DNA from: Phycisphaerales bacterium
Lineage (GTDB): Bacteria; Planctomycetota; Phycisphaerae; Phycisphaerales; UBA1924
Assembly (NCBI GenBank): GCA_040221175.1
Contig: JAVJVK010000004.1
Coordinates: 666,268-730,267, forward strand
Reading direction: 5' to 3'
Length of the DNA: 64,000 nucleotides
Made by a program: the position numbers and the translations under genes. Positions 9,647-30,382 of the stretch are shown in pieces (position 1 is the first letter of the stretch; each line of letters starts with the position of its first letter). The notes under the pieces are model-generated. The model had not been told where the DNA came from. It ran no database searches and was given only the letters and a program-made list of their open reading frames with translations.

Positions 9647-9884
9647 ACCGGCTGGCAATTTCGGTGTTTCGATCGCCCCGTCGCCCTCGGGCTGGGACGG
9701 CGCGTTGGTTGCCAATATCATCTTCACTCGGCCGGCATTGCCACCTCGATTGTGCCGATGAACCGATACCCGGAACGGCGTTGGACGGACCACGCCGTCC
9801 CTTGAAGATGGGATCAGGCGCCGTGCTATGGGACCTTCGGCCGAGGCCACGACAATCCAGCGAGCCACGACGGGCGGCACGACG

Positions 9885-10706
9885 ATGAGCGACGGGAGCG
9901 CCGTGCGCCAGATGCTGCTGTTCGCCGGCGCGGTGCGTCCCACCCCGCTGCTCAAGGCGGCCGCGCGCAACGTGCTCGATCTTCCGTTGCTCGATGGACA
10001 GACCGTTGGGACACGATGGCTCGCGGCGCTCGAAGAGCTTGGGGAAGCACTCGGGATCACCCTGCCACTGCGGATCCTGACCGATCGCAAGAGCCCCGCC
10101 CCAACCTCGACCAACCACGACCGCACCACCGTCGAGCCCGATGACGTGGCCTTCCTCGGCACCGGGGGCGTGCTTCGGGCGGCCGCCTCGGGCCAGCAGG
10201 GCAAGATGCTCGTCGCAACTGGCGGCAGCGTTGTGATCCCACCGCTGCCCGGTGTGGTCAACAGGCTCCTGGAACTCGACGCGGACGTCGCGCTCCTGGC
10301 CGAGCACGATGGCACGCCAACGGGCTTCATGCTCGTTTCTGCCGAGGTCATGCGAGCGGTGCCCGGCGCCGGCTACATGGACTTCAAGGAACAGTGCCTT
10401 CCGGTCATCGCCAGGCGCCACCGCGTGCGCGTGGCATATGCCTCGGCCGGCGAGCGGATCTGCCTGCCGATCCGCGACCGCGAGCAGTACATCGAGGCCC
10501 TGGGATACCTGTCGGGCGGCAAGCCGTTCGTCGTCGTGGAGCCGGGCGCCGAGGTGGCGCCGTCCAGCCGGATGCGCGACGCGGTCGTGCTGGCCCGCGC
10601 TCGGGTGGGCGAGCGAGCGGTCGTCGCGCGCTCACTGCTGGGGCCGGGCGCAGTGGCGCCGGCGGGCCAGGTCGTCACCGACAAGACGCTGGGAGGTGAT
10701 GCATGA
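9885..10706 (+). CDS. nucleotidyltransferase-like protein of the exosortase-type operon
   Basis: A 273-residue protein resembling the GT-A/MobA-like nucleotidyltransferase fold, with GYMDFKEQCLPVIAR near residue 168 and a C-terminal stretch suggestive of hexapeptide turns (VVLARARVGERAVVARSLLGPGAVAPAG). The glycine-rich NTP-binding signature expected at the N-terminus is degenerate (LLFAGAVRPTPLL), so catalysis is uncertain. Expected role by context: supply or modification of a nucleotide-activated sugar. The ATG at 9885 is preferred to 9828, which adds a non-homologous 19 residues. Its TGA overlaps the ATG of the next gene (ATGA), so the two are translationally coupled. First gene of a four-gene operon. 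The 238 bases upstream hold no gene. Confidence 0.6.
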   Translation: MSDGSAVRQMLLFAGAVRPTPLLKAAARNVLDLPLLDGQTVGTRWLAALEELGEALGITLPLRILTDRKSPAPTSTNHDRTTVEPDDVAFLGTGGVLRAAASGQQGKMLVATGGSVVIPPLPGVVNRLLELDADVALLAEHDGTPTGFMLVSAEVMRAVPGAGYMDFKEQCLPVIARRHRVRVAYASAGERICLPIRDREQYIEALGYLSGGKPFVVVEPGAEVAPSSRMRDAVVLARARVGERAVVARSLLGPGAVAPAGQVVTDKTLGGDA

Positions 10707-11566
10707 GCCTCGCCGCCCGCACCTGGACCGCATGGACGCCCGTGCAGGCGTGCGTTGCCGTGGCCGCCGCGGTGCTGGCGTGCCTGCCGGCATGGCGTGA
10801 CATCTACGTCAGCGCCACGACCGATCCGGACAACGGGTACATCGTGCTCGTGCCCGCCGTAGCCGGCTGGCTGGCGCTGTGCCGGCGACGCAGGCTCCGC
10901 AGCGCAGGCCGCCATGGCTTATGGCTCGGTCCGGTCATCGCGGCCGTGGCCGGCGGGGTCTACCTCGTGGGCGGTGCGCTCGATTCAACCCTGACCGTGC
11001 ACCTGGGCGCCATCGGCGTACTCATCGGAGCCATCTGGTCGGTCGTGGGTAGCAGCGTGATGCTGCGCATGAGTCCGGCGGTCGTGGCGCTCTTCTTCCT
11101 GGCCCCCGCGCCCATGCCGTGGCTGCTGCCGGTCACCGACGTGCTGAGCGCATGGAGCCTGGCGGTGACCGCGGGCGTGCTCGAAGTCTTTGGCATGCCG
11201 GCCTACTCCAGCGGGCAGGAACTGGTGGTGGGCGTCGAGCAGATCAGCCTGGGCGACTTCGCCGGCGTCCGCATGATCGCAGCCATCGGCCTGGTGACGT
11301 ACGCCTTTGCATTCGGCACGCCGCTGCGCCATGGCGTGCGCATCGCGCTCGTGCTGGCCAGCCCGCTCGTGGCGATGGTTGCCAACATCGTTCGTCTCGT
11401 GCCGTTTGCCATCCTGGCCGAATCGTGGCCCGCCTCGACCAATTTCCTTGCCCAGCTCAGCGGCTGGCTCACGCTGGCACTCTCGCTCGGCATGCTGTAC
11501 GGCGGCATTCGGCTGCTCGCCTTTGCCCAGGTTCCCGCCCGCCGCTACGCCCTGGCTTATCAGTGA
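10703..11566 (+). CDS. exosortase/archaeosortase-family homologue lacking catalytic residues
   Basis: A 287-residue membrane protein with about eight helices and the exosortase layout: PDNGYIVLVP near residue 42 (where active members have a 'SHG' motif), then the helix leading to the catalytic region at 180-270. Active exosortases carry Cys in an A-C-S-G motif, Arg in N-I-x-R and a His four residues before Gly-Trp. Here the matching positions read D185-F186-A187-G188 (no Cys), N228-I-V-R231 (Arg kept) and A250-Q-L-S-G254-W (no His). It is therefore probably not a transpeptidase. It is coupled to the gene before (ATGA overlap). The family assignment comes from motif order and hydropathy and needs a profile search. 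Confidence 0.65.
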   Translation: MSLAARTWTAWTPVQACVAVAAAVLACLPAWRDIYVSATTDPDNGYIVLVPAVAGWLALCRRRRLRSAGRHGLWLGPVIAAVAGGVYLVGGALDSTLTVHLGAIGVLIGAIWSVVGSSVMLRMSPAVVALFFLAPAPMPWLLPVTDVLSAWSLAVTAGVLEVFGMPAYSSGQELVVGVEQISLGDFAGVRMIAAIGLVTYAFAFGTPLRHGVRIALVLASPLVAMVANIVRLVPFAILAESWPASTNFLAQLSGWLTLALSLGMLYGGIRLLAFAQVPARRYALAYQ

Positions 11567-11588: not shown

Positions 11589-12266
11589 TTGCGCCGAAGC
11601 ATCCCCGTCATCCTGATCCTGCCGGTCGCGGCGGCTGTCTACATGGCCGACCCGATTCGGCGGCAGGGCCCGATGCTCGATCCTGCGTCGGTGGACGTTG
11701 ACGCGCATGTGCTCCAGCAAGACGTCGCCGGCTGGGTGCGGACGGAGACCTCGCAGCAGATGCCGCTGGCATTCCCGCCGCACAACGCCGTCCGGATCGA
11801 AACCATCCGATACGTCATCCGCAGTACGCCCGAAGGCGATATCGGCTTGCTCGATGACGATCGCAGGATCATCGCCGAGGCCTTCCTGCGCATCGTCATC
11901 GCGCAAGATCGTCGAGACCTGCTCGCGTTCGACCCGATCGAGGCCATGCGTTCGGGTGGATGGTCGGGCCAGGCCGGCGAGGATACGGACGAGCTTCGCC
12001 GGACGGTTCATCAGCGTGGCCCCGGACCGTTCACCGAGAGCGTCACGCTCGACACCGCCTACGTCGCTCCTGGTGCTTGGGGAGCCGACCCGGCCGTCCT
12101 GAACGCTGCTGGTGATCTTGATCGTGGCTGGCCCGGCCAGGGCGCCATGGTGCAACTTCTCATCGCCGACGCGCCGAGCGAGCAGGATGCCCAGGCACTG
12201 CGCAACGTCGTACGGTCGGCGGCCGAAGCGCTGGCCGAAGCGCTAGCCGGGAGCGAGGCGCCATGA
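11589..12266 (+). CDS. anchored envelope protein, EpsI-like by position
   Basis: A 225-residue protein with an N-terminal signal anchor (IPVILILPVAAAVYMA) and an otherwise soluble, presumably periplasmic, domain. I see no strong sequence motif. Its place directly after an exosortase-family gene is where EpsI/exosortase-associated proteins normally occur, so it may be a divergent EpsI-type partner. The start is taken as TTG at 11589, because AGAGGA lies 6 bases before it, the signal anchor follows at once, and no ATG/GTG exists in a suitable place. It overlaps the next gene by ATGA (12263-12266). Confidence 0.6.
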   Translation: MRRSIPVILILPVAAAVYMADPIRRQGPMLDPASVDVDAHVLQQDVAGWVRTETSQQMPLAFPPHNAVRIETIRYVIRSTPEGDIGLLDDDRRIIAEAFLRIVIAQDRRDLLAFDPIEAMRSGGWSGQAGEDTDELRRTVHQRGPGPFTESVTLDTAYVAPGAWGADPAVLNAAGDLDRGWPGQGAMVQLLIADAPSEQDAQALRNVVRSAAEALAEALAGSEAP

Positions 12267-13672
12267 TCGCCGAGCCGGCTGGCACCCCCACCATCTTCGG
12301 CCTCTCGGCCGTGGCGCTCCACGATCGCTACTGGGCGTCGCGCGGGGTGCAGGTTGTTCGACAGGGCCTGGCCACGCCGCTCGTGCGCCACGCCCAGTTG
12401 TTTCTTCTTCTGCAGCCTCGCACGCTGTGCCTCTTCGAGCTGCCCCCGGTGGTCGACCATATCGTGTGGGATGATGCCGACCTGGTCATGCTGCGCCTGC
12501 AGGACATCGACGAGCACGCCTATCGCGAGCGCATCGTTGCGGATGACCAAGGACGCTTCGTGCAACTCGAACGGGTCTACGGCAGCGACGATTCACGATT
12601 TGCTCGGGCTGCGGTAACCAATCGGCCCACGGTCGCCAGACTGTGGCAGGAAGCCGAAGACCGTCGGGACGGATGGCGGAAGCTCCGACGGGCCGTACGA
12701 CGCGGACAACGTTGGCCCATGGGCATCGATGCGCGGGTGTTCGATGCCGACGACCCCACCGAGCTCGCCCGGTGCGCCCGCCTGCTGGTCGAACGCTGGC
12801 ACACGCCCAACAGCACCATCGAGCGCGCCACCCAGCGCGGGGGCGGCGCCTGGATCGACCCCGACGCCACGCTGGGCAAGGACGCCCAATGCATCGGCAG
12901 GGTCTGGGTGGGCGCCGGACGCACCGTCGCCGACGACGAGATCCTCGTGGGCCCGGACATCGCATGGGACGACCCCGCGCACACGCCCGACCCCGGGGAT
13001 GTCCGCTGGCTTGATCTTCAGCCCACCGAACGGACCGAGCCCCTGCACCCGCGCTCCCTGCCACCCCTGGAGCGTGTGCTCAAGCGGGCGTTCGATATCG
13101 TGTTCGCGATCATCGCCCTGGCCCTGACGCTGCCGATCTATCCCTTCGTCATGCTGGCCATCTGGCTCGAGGACGGGCGGCCGTTCTTCTTCGCGCACAC
13201 GCGCGAGTCGCTGAACGCCAAGGACTTCCCTTGCCTGAAGTTCCGCTCGATGCGCAAGGACGCCGAGAAGATGAAGGCCGAACTCGCCGCGCTCAACCAG
13301 GTCGATGGCCCACAGTTCTACATCAAGGACGACCCACGGCTGACGCGCGTGGGCAAGTTCATCCGCAAGGTACAGATCGACGAGTTGCCGCAGTTTATCA
13401 ACGTCCTGCTGGGCCACATGTCGGTCGTCGGGCCGCGCCCAAGCCCATACAAGGAGAACCAATACTGCCCCGGCTGGCGCGAGGCGCGGCTGAGCGTGCG
13501 CCCCGGCGTGACGGGGCTGTGGCAGGTGAAGCGCACTCGCGCGGCCGACAGCGACTTCCAGGAATGGATCCGCTACGACATCGAGTACGTCGAGAACATG
13601 AGCCTGTGGCTCGACCTGAAGATCATCTGGCGCACCATCGCGCAGATCATCCGCTCGATCAAGCGCTCTTGA
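12263..13672 (+). CDS. polyprenyl-phosphate sugar-phosphate transferase with extra N-terminal region
   Basis: A 469-residue protein. The C-terminal 200 residues are a bacterial sugar transferase (WcaJ/PglC type): KRAFDIVFAIIALALTLPIY is the membrane segment near residue 275, followed by FAHTRESLN, CLKFRSMRKDAE, the Asp-Glu motif IDELPQFINVLLG, VGPRPSPY, and RPGVTGLWQV. It should transfer a sugar-1-phosphate to undecaprenyl phosphate and so start a glycan repeat unit. Instead of the usual four-helix N-terminus there are about 270 soluble residues, including hexapeptide-like turns near residue 195-235 (IDPDATLGKDAQCIGRVWVG). Last gene of the operon; it abuts the convergent dinG gene with no spacing. 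Confidence 0.82.
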   Translation: MIAEPAGTPTIFGLSAVALHDRYWASRGVQVVRQGLATPLVRHAQLFLLLQPRTLCLFELPPVVDHIVWDDADLVMLRLQDIDEHAYRERIVADDQGRFVQLERVYGSDDSRFARAAVTNRPTVARLWQEAEDRRDGWRKLRRAVRRGQRWPMGIDARVFDADDPTELARCARLLVERWHTPNSTIERATQRGGGAWIDPDATLGKDAQCIGRVWVGAGRTVADDEILVGPDIAWDDPAHTPDPGDVRWLDLQPTERTEPLHPRSLPPLERVLKRAFDIVFAIIALALTLPIYPFVMLAIWLEDGRPFFFAHTRESLNAKDFPCLKFRSMRKDAEKMKAELAALNQVDGPQFYIKDDPRLTRVGKFIRKVQIDELPQFINVLLGHMSVVGPRPSPYKENQYCPGWREARLSVRPGVTGLWQVKRTRAADSDFQEWIRYDIEYVENMSLWLDLKIIWRTIAQIIRSIKRS

Positions 13673-20736: not shown

Positions 20737-20904
20737 TTATGGGCCGGTCGCGGCGTCGTTAGCGTCGTACGCGTCGTGATAGAGGGTGTCGTCGGTCTGG
20801 CCATCGGTGTTCATGTCCACGCGGCGGGCGCCAGTAGCGATCAGGTCGTTGAACAAGGTCATGTCGTAGAGATCGGTCCCATCGTCGAAGTCGAGGCTTC
20901 CGGG
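20737..20904 (-). pseudogene. possible remnant of a dockerin-type C-terminus
   Basis: On the minus strand this stretch reads LDFDDGTDLYDMTLFNDLIA...VDMNTDGQTDDTLYHDAYDA and then a stop: two Asp-rich calcium-loop-like repeats spaced as in dockerin domains. It lacks the signal peptide and body of such a protein, and upstream in-frame codons run antisense into the start of the next gene. It is best read as the decayed 3' end of a dockerin-domain gene. The call rests on pattern alone. Confidence 0.35.
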
Positions 20905-20964
20905 GTCGGGTGTTCGCGGCGAAATGGCCTTGCAAACGAGACCACGATCGAGGACAATGGCGGC

Positions 20965-22329
20965 ATGACTGCCTCGCAAGCCTGCCATGCCGCCGCCATC
21001 GCCCTCGCCGGTTTCATGCTGGCCAAAGCGACGTTGGCCCAATGTCCGCGGCAGATTCTCGAATCACCCTCGGCCTTCGCCGACTCGTTTGGCGGCGCCG
21101 TCGCTATCCACGACCGCCACCTGCTCGTTGGCGATGGCGGGGAGCATTCGCTCTGCGGCGATGTCTTCTGTGCCAACGGCCTTGTGTACGCCTACGAGCG
21201 AGACGGCGCCGGGGACTGGATGCTCCGGCAGGTCATCGAGCCCGCTGACCTCGCATGGAACCACCTGTTCGGTGCGGGCATCGCGTTGGACGGCGACCGC
21301 GTCCTGATCGGTGCCGCCCGCATCGGCAGCGGAGGACAGGCAAACTACGAATTCGAGTTCGATGGCGAACGGTGGCGCGAGGTCAGCCTGTTCCAGTCGC
21401 CCGATACCCGGCCTAAAGACGCGGCACGTGCGCTCTCGGGGGATACGGCGCTGGTGCCGTACGCCTTCGACGGACTGTTTGTTTTTGAGCGGGTCGACGG
21501 GGTGTGGCAAGCGACGGAGGATCTTCGAAATCCAGACAAGCCCATCGGCCGCAGCGACTTCGGCGTGTCCGCCGCGCTGAACGATGAGTGGGTCGTGGTC
21601 GGAGCGACGTACGAAGATATCATTGCGATCAACGGTGGCGCAGCCTACGCGTATCGCCGATTGCCGGATGGTGGCGTTGAACTAGCCCAAAAGCTCGTCG
21701 CGCCAGACGTGCTGGATGGCCCTCGCTTCGGTGCGCCCGTCGTGCTCCACGACGACCAGCTCTTCATCGGGGCCAGGCTCGCCAGCCGAACGGCCAGGGG
21801 CCAAGGCGTCGTCTACGTGTACGAACTCGAAGAAGGCCTCTGGACCCTTGCCGACGAGATCACGCACTCGAATCCCGAACGCTTCGATGGCTTGGGACGA
21901 TCGCTCGCCGTCGAGGGCAACAACCTCGTCGTTTCAGCGCCCGGCGCATCAACGCCCACGGCCAGCGGCGGGGCCTTCCTGTTCCGGCGGGATGCGTCGG
22001 GGCTGTGGATCGAGGACACGCGGATCAGTCCCGTGCAACCCACGACGTCGTTCGGCGTCGGTGGGATCTCCGGCTCGACGGCGGTCTTGGGTTCGCCCGG
22101 CGCCGTGGTCGGAACTGGCTTCCCCGGCGTGGTCGAGATCTTTGATCTGGATTGCGACGCCTGCCCCCCCGACCTCGATTTCGACGGCGCCCTGACCATC
22201 TTCGACTTCCTCACCTACCTCAACCTCTTCCAAGACGCCGACCCGCAAGCCGACTTCGACGGCGACGGCGAGCTGACGATCTTCGACTTCCTGGCGTTCC
22301 AGACGGCGTTCGACGCGGGGTGCCCATAG
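20965..22329 (+). CDS. secreted FG-GAP repeat protein with GC-type dockerin domain
   Basis: A 454-residue exported protein. The signal peptide ends near residue 26 (AKATLAQ|CPRQ). Six or seven FG-GAP-like beta-propeller blades follow, each with a pattern such as FGAGIALDGDRVLIGA, FGVSAALNDEWVVVGA or LGRSLAVEGNNLVVSA. The last 55 residues form the dockerin-like module (DLDFDGALTIFDFLTYLNLF and DFDGDGELTIFDFLAFQTAF) ending in DAGCP. It is presumably displayed at, or released from, the cell surface. The ATG at 20965 gives an immediate signal peptide; AGGA lies 10 bases upstream. Confidence 0.82.
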   Translation: MTASQACHAAAIALAGFMLAKATLAQCPRQILESPSAFADSFGGAVAIHDRHLLVGDGGEHSLCGDVFCANGLVYAYERDGAGDWMLRQVIEPADLAWNHLFGAGIALDGDRVLIGAARIGSGGQANYEFEFDGERWREVSLFQSPDTRPKDAARALSGDTALVPYAFDGLFVFERVDGVWQATEDLRNPDKPIGRSDFGVSAALNDEWVVVGATYEDIIAINGGAAYAYRRLPDGGVELAQKLVAPDVLDGPRFGAPVVLHDDQLFIGARLASRTARGQGVVYVYELEEGLWTLADEITHSNPERFDGLGRSLAVEGNNLVVSAPGASTPTASGGAFLFRRDASGLWIEDTRISPVQPTTSFGVGGISGSTAVLGSPGAVVGTGFPGVVEIFDLDCDACPPDLDFDGALTIFDFLTYLNLFQDADPQADFDGDGELTIFDFLAFQTAFDAGCP

Positions 22330-29032: not shown

Positions 29033-30382
29033 ATGATGAATTTCACGGAATCGCTGTCGACTCGCATGATCGCCGCGGCCGGCCTGGCCGCCACCGCGAC
29101 CGCCGCCTTCGGACAGTGCGTGCCCACATGGGACTATGCGATTGGCAACCCCGGCGTGGCAGACGGCTACGTGCAGCCCATGTTTGTTTGGGAAGGCGAC
29201 CTGTACGCGGGTGGCTCGTTCCCCATGATCGGCGGCGTGAGCGACACCGCATACATCGCCCGCTGGGACGGCAGCGCCTGGAACAGCCTGGGCACGCCGG
29301 GCATCGACCCGGGCTCGTCCAACGCGTTCACCACCAGCTTCGAGAGCTTCGACGTGAACGGCACGGAGGCGCTGATCGTCGGCGGCTTCTACGCCAGCGC
29401 TGGCGGGCTGGCCAACTCCATGTCCATCGCGGCCTGGGACGGGACGGAGTGGCTCTCGATGGAGCCCGACTTCGCGCTCTTTGACGCCATCTGGGGCATG
29501 ACGACCGGCGACCTGGGCGACGGCGAGCGTCTGTACGTCGGCGGCGCCTTCGAGGGCATCGGCAGCTCGGCCGGCGCGGGCGTGGCCCAGTGGGACGGCA
29601 CGAGTTGGGCGCCCGTGGGCGGCGGCGGCACGTTCGTGGGCACCGTGTTCGACGTGGTCATCTTCGACGACGGCTCGGGCCCTGCGCTCTATGCCGGTGG
29701 TCGCTTCAACACGATCGACGGCGAGCCCATCCTGCTGCTGGCGCGTTTTAAGGACGGCGCCTGGGAGACCGTGCAGGACGGCCTGTTCGGCACCTCGCCG
29801 GTTGCCGACGCCGGCCAGCTGGCGGTTTTTGACGACGGCAGCGGCCCGGCCCTGTACGTCGGCGGTCGCAGCTTCTTTGCCGCCAGCTCGTCGGACATGG
29901 CCGACGTGTATAAGTGGGACGGCACCGAGTGGTCAGGCGTCGGCCAGGACTTCACCGGCATCGTCAGCGACCTGTTCGTCTGGGACGATGGCAGCGGCGA
30001 AGCGCTGTACATGGCCACCAGCAGCTCGGACCTGGGCCGCCTGGCTCGCCTCGAGGGCGACACCTGGGTGACCGTCGATGGCGGCGCCGACGGCGGGTCG
30101 GTCTTCGGCCTTGCCGAGTGGAACGGCGACCTGTACGTTGGCGGCAGCTTCGAGACCGTCAACGGCGAGGCCGCCAGCGGCATCGTGCGCCGCACCGGCT
30201 GCACCGCCAGCGATTGCTACGCCGACTTCGACGGCGACGGCGAGCTGACCATCTTCGACTTCCTGGCCTACCAGAACGCGTTCGACGCGGGCGACCTGGT
30301 GGCCGACTGCGACGAGGATGGGTCGCTGACCATCTTCGACTTCCTGTGCTTCCAGAACGGCTTCGACGCCGGCTGCCCGTAA
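29033..30382 (+). CDS. secreted beta-propeller protein with GC-type dockerin domain, copy 1
   Basis: A 449-residue exported protein. Signal peptide to about residue 28 (TAAFGQ|CVPTW). The body is made of repeats with the pattern YVGGxFxxIxG...IAxWDGxxWxxLG, as in Kelch-like or delta-60-type propellers, probably six blades. The C-terminal module is FDGDGELTIFDFLAYQNAF and CDEDGSLTIFDFLCFQNGF, then DAGCP. AAGGAGAG precedes ATG-ATG. It is a close paralogue of the next gene (same order of motifs, e.g. IGNP-DGYVQP near residue 38). The two were made by tandem duplication. It has its own terminator. Confidence 0.85.
   Translation: MMNFTESLSTRMIAAAGLAATATAAFGQCVPTWDYAIGNPGVADGYVQPMFVWEGDLYAGGSFPMIGGVSDTAYIARWDGSAWNSLGTPGIDPGSSNAFTTSFESFDVNGTEALIVGGFYASAGGLANSMSIAAWDGTEWLSMEPDFALFDAIWGMTTGDLGDGERLYVGGAFEGIGSSAGAGVAQWDGTSWAPVGGGGTFVGTVFDVVIFDDGSGPALYAGGRFNTIDGEPILLLARFKDGAWETVQDGLFGTSPVADAGQLAVFDDGSGPALYVGGRSFFAASSSDMADVYKWDGTEWSGVGQDFTGIVSDLFVWDDGSGEALYMATSSSDLGRLARLEGDTWVTVDGGADGGSVFGLAEWNGDLYVGGSFETVNGEAASGIVRRTGCTASDCYADFDGDGELTIFDFLAYQNAFDAGDLVADCDEDGSLTIFDFLCFQNGFDAGCP

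Follow-up and report, generated by a model that had tools for sequence, protein, structure and literature searches.

The following features were located in the window, that is, the whole stretch of 64,000 nucleotides that was analysed:

9828..10706, forward strand: geneA, which opens the operon; its uncharacterised product ends in hexapeptide repeats (GlmU-like) and is nucleotidyltransferase-like, by eye, in its N-terminal part
10703..11566, forward strand: pseudo-exosortase (pXRT), 287 aa, characterised by its Pfam match, genus orthologs, AF2 model, dN/dS and tail
11589..12266, forward strand: putative degenerate EpsI (pEpsI), TTG start with AGAGGA upstream, assigned by alignment with 29 EpsI
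12263..13672, forward strand: BT, a polyprenyl-phosphate sugar transferase (Bac_transf; PF02397, 214 bits, residues 274-463; DELPQ present)

The reading frame of pXRT was intact, with an ATG at 10703 and the stop at 11564-11566. Its start overlapped geneA through ATGA (10703-10706), 22 bp separated its end from the likely downstream start at 11589, and its GC3 was 0.86, compared with 0.85-0.86 in the neighbours. These results agreed with the first-pass annotation, which had described an intact, coupled gene of normal codon use. The coordinates and frame it gave were verified on the sequence, as were D185-F-A-G, R231 and the Ala four residues before G254-W.

A profile search matched pXRT to Pfam Exosortase_EpsH (PF09721) with 99.9 bits over residues 21-271, against a gathering cutoff of 25.7, and this full-length match bore out the proposed family. 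The NCBIfam signature TIGR04178 was marginally above its cutoff (24.3 against 23 bits), and the subfamily model TIGR02602 was far below it (52.6 against 105.55). The six perfectly conserved residues of the family lie in C-x-G, N-x-x-R and H-x-x-x-G (Haft 2006, PMC1569441). Four of these six were present in pXRT (G188, N228, R231, and G254), and the putative catalytic Cys and His were missing: the Cys motif region reads D185-F186-A187-G188, and the His position is A250, four residues ahead of G254-W255. R190, W255 and a C-terminal tail of the form VPxxRYALAYQ were also retained. The earlier statement that R231 was the only conserved residue left was therefore too narrow, since G188, R190, N228 and G254 remain as well.

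An alignment of 56 family members was used, consisting of 49 intact homologs, the window protein, and six orthologs from its genus. Cys, N-x-x-R and H-x-x-x-G were present in 49/49 intact homologs. Across the seven genus sequences (window protein and six orthologs), the Cys position was occupied by F, F, F, F, N, D and N, and the His position by A, A, A, A, A, S and G, with the motif Gly retained. Depending on the alignment, the Cys position of pXRT is either a substitution (F186) or a one-residue gap, and there is no Cys either way. N228 and R231 were present in 7/7. More than 20 further positions that are fixed in live enzymes of the family were altered in the genus, and the core glycines, prolines and Arg were mostly retained. 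The sequence analysis confirmed that 10703-11566 encodes a full-length exosortase-family member without the putative catalytic Cys and His.

By its named relatives, the window belongs to the Phycisphaeraceae/Phycisphaerales. An ortholog of pXRT was found in all seven sampled genomes of the genus, with 55-86% identity, and Cys and His were absent from every one. The orthologs aligned end to end even at 55% identity, and no stops or frameshifts occurred in the gene in the seven species. In the closest species pair, dN rose from 0.064 (sugar transferase) through 0.090 (pXRT), 0.170 (geneA), 0.175 (intact exosortase paralog, described below) and 0.255 (intact EpsI) to 0.414 (degenerate EpsI). Between the window genome and its three closest relatives, dN/dS of pXRT was about 0.10-0.16, a value as low as that of the intact paralog. 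Because synonymous substitutions approach saturation (pS ~0.5 regardless of distance), the dN/dS figures are only approximate in absolute terms, and setting one gene against another is more reliable. By that comparison, the dead copy is about as constrained as the live paralog. A pseudogene or decaying gene was rejected on the open frames and low dN in seven species, in line with the first-pass view. Catalytic residues are gone and purifying selection persists, as in a pseudoenzyme. The first pass had also held that uniform loss with conserved substitutes would support a new function; the loss was uniform (7/7), but the substitute residues varied. Because they vary among orthologs, no replacement catalytic site is visible at those positions.

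The AF2 model of pXRT had a pLDDT of 88.3 and a pTM of 0.82. For the intact paralog, the model (pLDDT 89.2) had a similar helix order and the same hairpin region, and the secondary structure of the two models agreed. In the Protein Data Bank, neither a sequence relative nor a significant fold match was found. Assignment of pXRT to the exosortase fold depends on sequence evidence and on the consistency between the two models, because no solved structure resembles it. Misalignment or a hidden Cys or His was rejected. Of the alternative residues that the first pass had named, Cys17, Cys60 and His210 were variable among orthologs, but Cys27 was constant in 7/7. The only constant Cys and His among the seven orthologs were C27 and H100. 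It was considered whether Cys27, His100 and Arg231 form a new active site, so that pXRT would still be a protease; the helix order of the model would set C27 on the old active-site face. However, 44/49 live enzymes also have H100, and Thr is their most frequent residue at the C27 position; a new triad is therefore not indicated. Among the f6 dead copies inspected (see below), this position is likewise Thr and not Cys. Relocated catalysis is thus highly improbable.

The product of 11589-12266 is, judging by its sequence, a degenerate EpsI, an assignment new to this analysis. No EpsI model matched it in Pfam or NCBIfam, including TIGR02914. In a reference set of 29 EpsI adjoining intact exosortases, the motif GHYPPxCYPxxGW was nearly fixed, with H in 29/29 and C in 29/29. 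pEpsI lacks the motif residues C105, H114 and C119, and in the seven pEpsI beside the pseudo-exosortase, H was replaced by F or Y and C by A or S. D107, D110, P116, G124, W125 and Q189 were retained; R109 was present in six of the seven when aligned by eye and in 7/7 by count. Exosortase and EpsI motif residues were lost in the same loci of the genus. The proposal that pXRT could act as a scaffold for EpsI-like partners is thus not supported in the form given, the adjoining partner being itself degenerate in 7/7.

A second, intact exosortase (ACNG, NxxR, HxxxG) was found at another locus in each of the seven genomes. In the two loci that were read fully, the gene order was sugar dehydrogenase, glycosyltransferase, exosortase, EpsI, Wzc-like kinase, and TPR protein, and a PEP-CTERM-like protein adjoined the locus. 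This protein (L090:1792-2622 and L091:17614-18369) ends PLPGAGALAMAGLFGVAAVRRRR and is possibly a dedicated substrate. The EpsI of the intact paralog scored 27.4 bits with TIGR02914, below the cutoff of 42.8. Matches to PF07589 (PEP-CTERM) numbered 12-21 per genome in the genus and 16 in the window genome, which accordingly holds both PEP-CTERM proteins and an intact exosortase. With the intact exosortase-EpsI locus and these proteins in the genome, sorting can be covered without the window gene. In the family tree, pXRT and the intact paralog formed separate clades in different parts, each with 100/100 support; on this tree they are not recent duplicates. Proteins with a C-terminal GC-type dockerin (NF041540) were also observed in the window at 20776-22329 and 29033-30382 and, by eye, at 1301-2644; such ends add another type of C-terminal surface signal to the window genome.

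The presence of PEP-CTERM proteins in the genome, the exosortase profile match and the retention of R190, R209, R213 and R231 are consistent with a regulator of sorting, in which pXRT would bind PEP-CTERM proteins, or pair with the paralog, and restrain or direct sorting without cutting. However, pXRT has lost residues that are fixed in live enzymes, namely E43, S45, H46, R141, Q149, N172, N177, Y239 and D251, though family f2 (DNGY) shows variation at some of these in its live enzymes. Moreover, its gene stays with the sugar genes and not with the intact exosortase. A role in sorting control is therefore unlikely.

The usual operon across the order is geneA, live exosortase, EpsI, Wzc, and sugar transferase; it was seen in the family's other genera as well as in families f2, f4, f5 and f6. 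In the window genus this operon is split: the locus of the intact exosortase includes Wzc and the sugar dehydrogenase, and that of the dead copy includes geneA and the sugar transferase. geneA stood ahead of the exosortase, live or dead, in the inspected loci. The two co-occurred closely across the order, the geneA profile being found in 133 genomes and an exosortase in 125 of the same sample. The window geneA scored only 15.6 bits with Hexapep_GlmU, which matched 12/15 orthologs. By eye, geneA and its orthologs (L075, L208, L217, and others) are nucleotidyltransferase-like with the GXGTR-type motif gone and the hexapeptide end retained. NCBIfam matches of BT spanned only the C-terminal half of the models; its N-terminal domain of 265 aa (12263-13060) had no NCBIfam match and replaces the usual membrane half. 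The tail VPxxxYxLA, or a close form, was present in 16/17 dead, 27/39 live operon and 0/18 stand-alone copies, a pattern that was defined after inspecting the sequences and is partly phylogenetic. The distribution of this tail hints at an operon-specific partner.

Catalytic sites were readable in 119 genomes: 98 had one intact exosortase, 17 a dead and an intact copy, four two intact copies, and none a dead copy only. In 17/17 genomes with a dead and an intact copy, which belong to the window genus and family f6, the dead copy adjoined geneA. The ten f6 genomes were G170, G195, G207, G185, G187, G191, G177, G199, G249 and G215. Each of the ten carried an intact copy as well, either away from the operon or immediately preceding it, and none had an identifiable EpsI separating the dead exosortase from the next operon gene. 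Most f6 dead copies retain Cys and lack N-x-x-R and His; the exceptions are G187 and G191, without Cys and His, and G177, without all three. Their dN/dS was 0.13-0.28 where measurable. At L208:9461-11128 and L209:10373-12040, geneA and the dead exosortase are immediately preceded by an exosortase-EpsI fusion, so that live and dead copies are adjacent.

All dead copies in the order could descend from one ancient dead paralog that first lost His. AU tests did not reject a single clade of the dead exosortases (p 0.557) or of their sugar transferases (p 0.184). However, Cys is absent in the window genus and present in most f6 dead copies, and Arg231 shows the reverse; the Cys and Arg losses are therefore separate, and only the His loss could be shared between the two groups. 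The best sugar-transferase tree also separates the groups, by 21.5 log units. In the exosortase tree, eight of the f6 dead copies grouped apart from the genus clade, which L244 joined on a long branch. A single origin is thus the less probable history, though one with some weight. It concerns history, not role, and is compatible with a pseudoenzyme. DNGY at positions 43-46 was rejected as a mark of a dead clade, as live family f2 enzymes carry it, and the tree did not support the related idea that the dead clade arose from family f2. The live exosortases of family f2 (L144, L145, L149, L142, and others) have DNGY for ExSH near the first loop and GEACDGMRM around Cys, and are a distinct sequence type.

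In six inspected f6 loci (L260, L262, and L265-L268), Wzc came immediately after geneA, without an intervening exosortase-like frame. In L262, L266, L267 and L268 (genus g111), no exosortase match was found anywhere in the genomes at the threshold used. Two of the genomes with geneA-Wzc and no intervening exosortase, G166 and G211, had an exosortase match elsewhere in the genome. A strict requirement of the operon for the exosortase fold was rejected by these loci: the operon can work without the fold, and the importance of the dead copy may be confined to certain lineages. Taking in the four genomes that carry two live copies, the operon copy has been kept alive, kept dead or deleted.

Such genomes, two of them with a match elsewhere, would suit a relic on its way to loss, in which the second exosortase took over and the operon copy is slowly decaying and would later be deleted. 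The neighbouring pEpsI, the fastest-evolving gene of the operon (amino-acid identity 0.52 in the closest pair), points the same way. Against this stand the open frames in seven species, a constraint close to that of the intact paralog, and the end-to-end alignment at 55% identity. The dead copies of family f6 are constrained too. A relic is quite improbable.

The genus-wide loss of Cys and His, the conservation of the rest beside surface-sugar genes and the intact second copy together suggested that pXRT probably has a non-cutting job. The preferred reading is a pseudo-exosortase that the sugar operon retains for a non-proteolytic function, sorting being performed by the paralog; the probability of this reading was put at about 0.6. 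pXRT would descend from the single exosortase that related genera carry in a geneA-exosortase-EpsI-Wzc-sugar transferase operon, where it presumably sorts PEP-CTERM proteins. In the window genus, the intact exosortase-EpsI pair at the other locus can do this sorting. The operon exosortase lost Cys and His, and its EpsI the His/Cys motif, with the membrane protein retained by purifying selection. pXRT may now be a non-cleaving membrane subunit of the sugar-priming machinery that this operon encodes (geneA, degenerate EpsI, BT), and may hold that complex together or regulate it. Given its residues, pXRT is presumably not proteolytic in vivo. We infer a scaffold or regulatory role, as membrane subunit or organiser, from its gene neighbours, its constraint and the tail that it shares with other operon copies. 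A membrane partner would be of use to a BT without a recognisable membrane half. As raised in the first pass, handling of lipid-linked glycans or scaffolding is a plausible candidate role.

A broader reading, held tentatively, is that operon exosortases of this planctomycete order have two jobs: sorting with EpsI and a non-proteolytic job in sugar priming. Where a stand-alone pair takes the first, the operon copy would repeatedly lose catalysis, its EpsI would degenerate or disappear, and the copy would be kept for the second. EpsI itself appears to serve catalysis and not a structural role; the clue is that its His/Cys, or the whole EpsI, was lost wherever the operon exosortase was dead. If the two-job reading is true, exosortases have a hidden structural function, and the EpsI His/Cys motif is tied to exosortase catalysis. 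Exosortase genes lie mostly among exopolysaccharide genes, for a reason that is not established. With a selected, non-cutting copy beside a priming sugar transferase, the two roles come apart, and the link between exosortase and exopolysaccharide becomes accessible to testing by simple gene removal.

In comparison with known systems, pXRT resembles exosortase/EpsH (PF09721, TIGR02602, XrtA) in its full-length match, helix pattern, NxxR, motif glycines and exopolysaccharide neighbours, but differs in having no catalytic Cys or His, a TIGR02602 score below cutoff and a degenerate EpsI partner. Similarly, pEpsI resembles EpsI (TIGR02914) in its position directly downstream of the exosortase and in the conserved D..RD..P...GW skeleton, whereas the H and C of its motif are lost in 7/7 and the models do not recognise it. 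No pseudo-exosortase was found in the literature, of which coverage was partial. Archaeosortase A (ArtA) of Haloferax volcanii belongs to a family related to the exosortases. The activity of ArtA requires Cys173, Arg214 and Arg253 (PMC9263693). Of these critical residues, only the Arg taken to correspond to Arg214 is retained in pXRT. pXRT also resembles pseudopeptidases and pseudoenzymes in general (reviewed in PMC11266112): a protease fold is under selection without its catalytic residues, and an active paralog is present.
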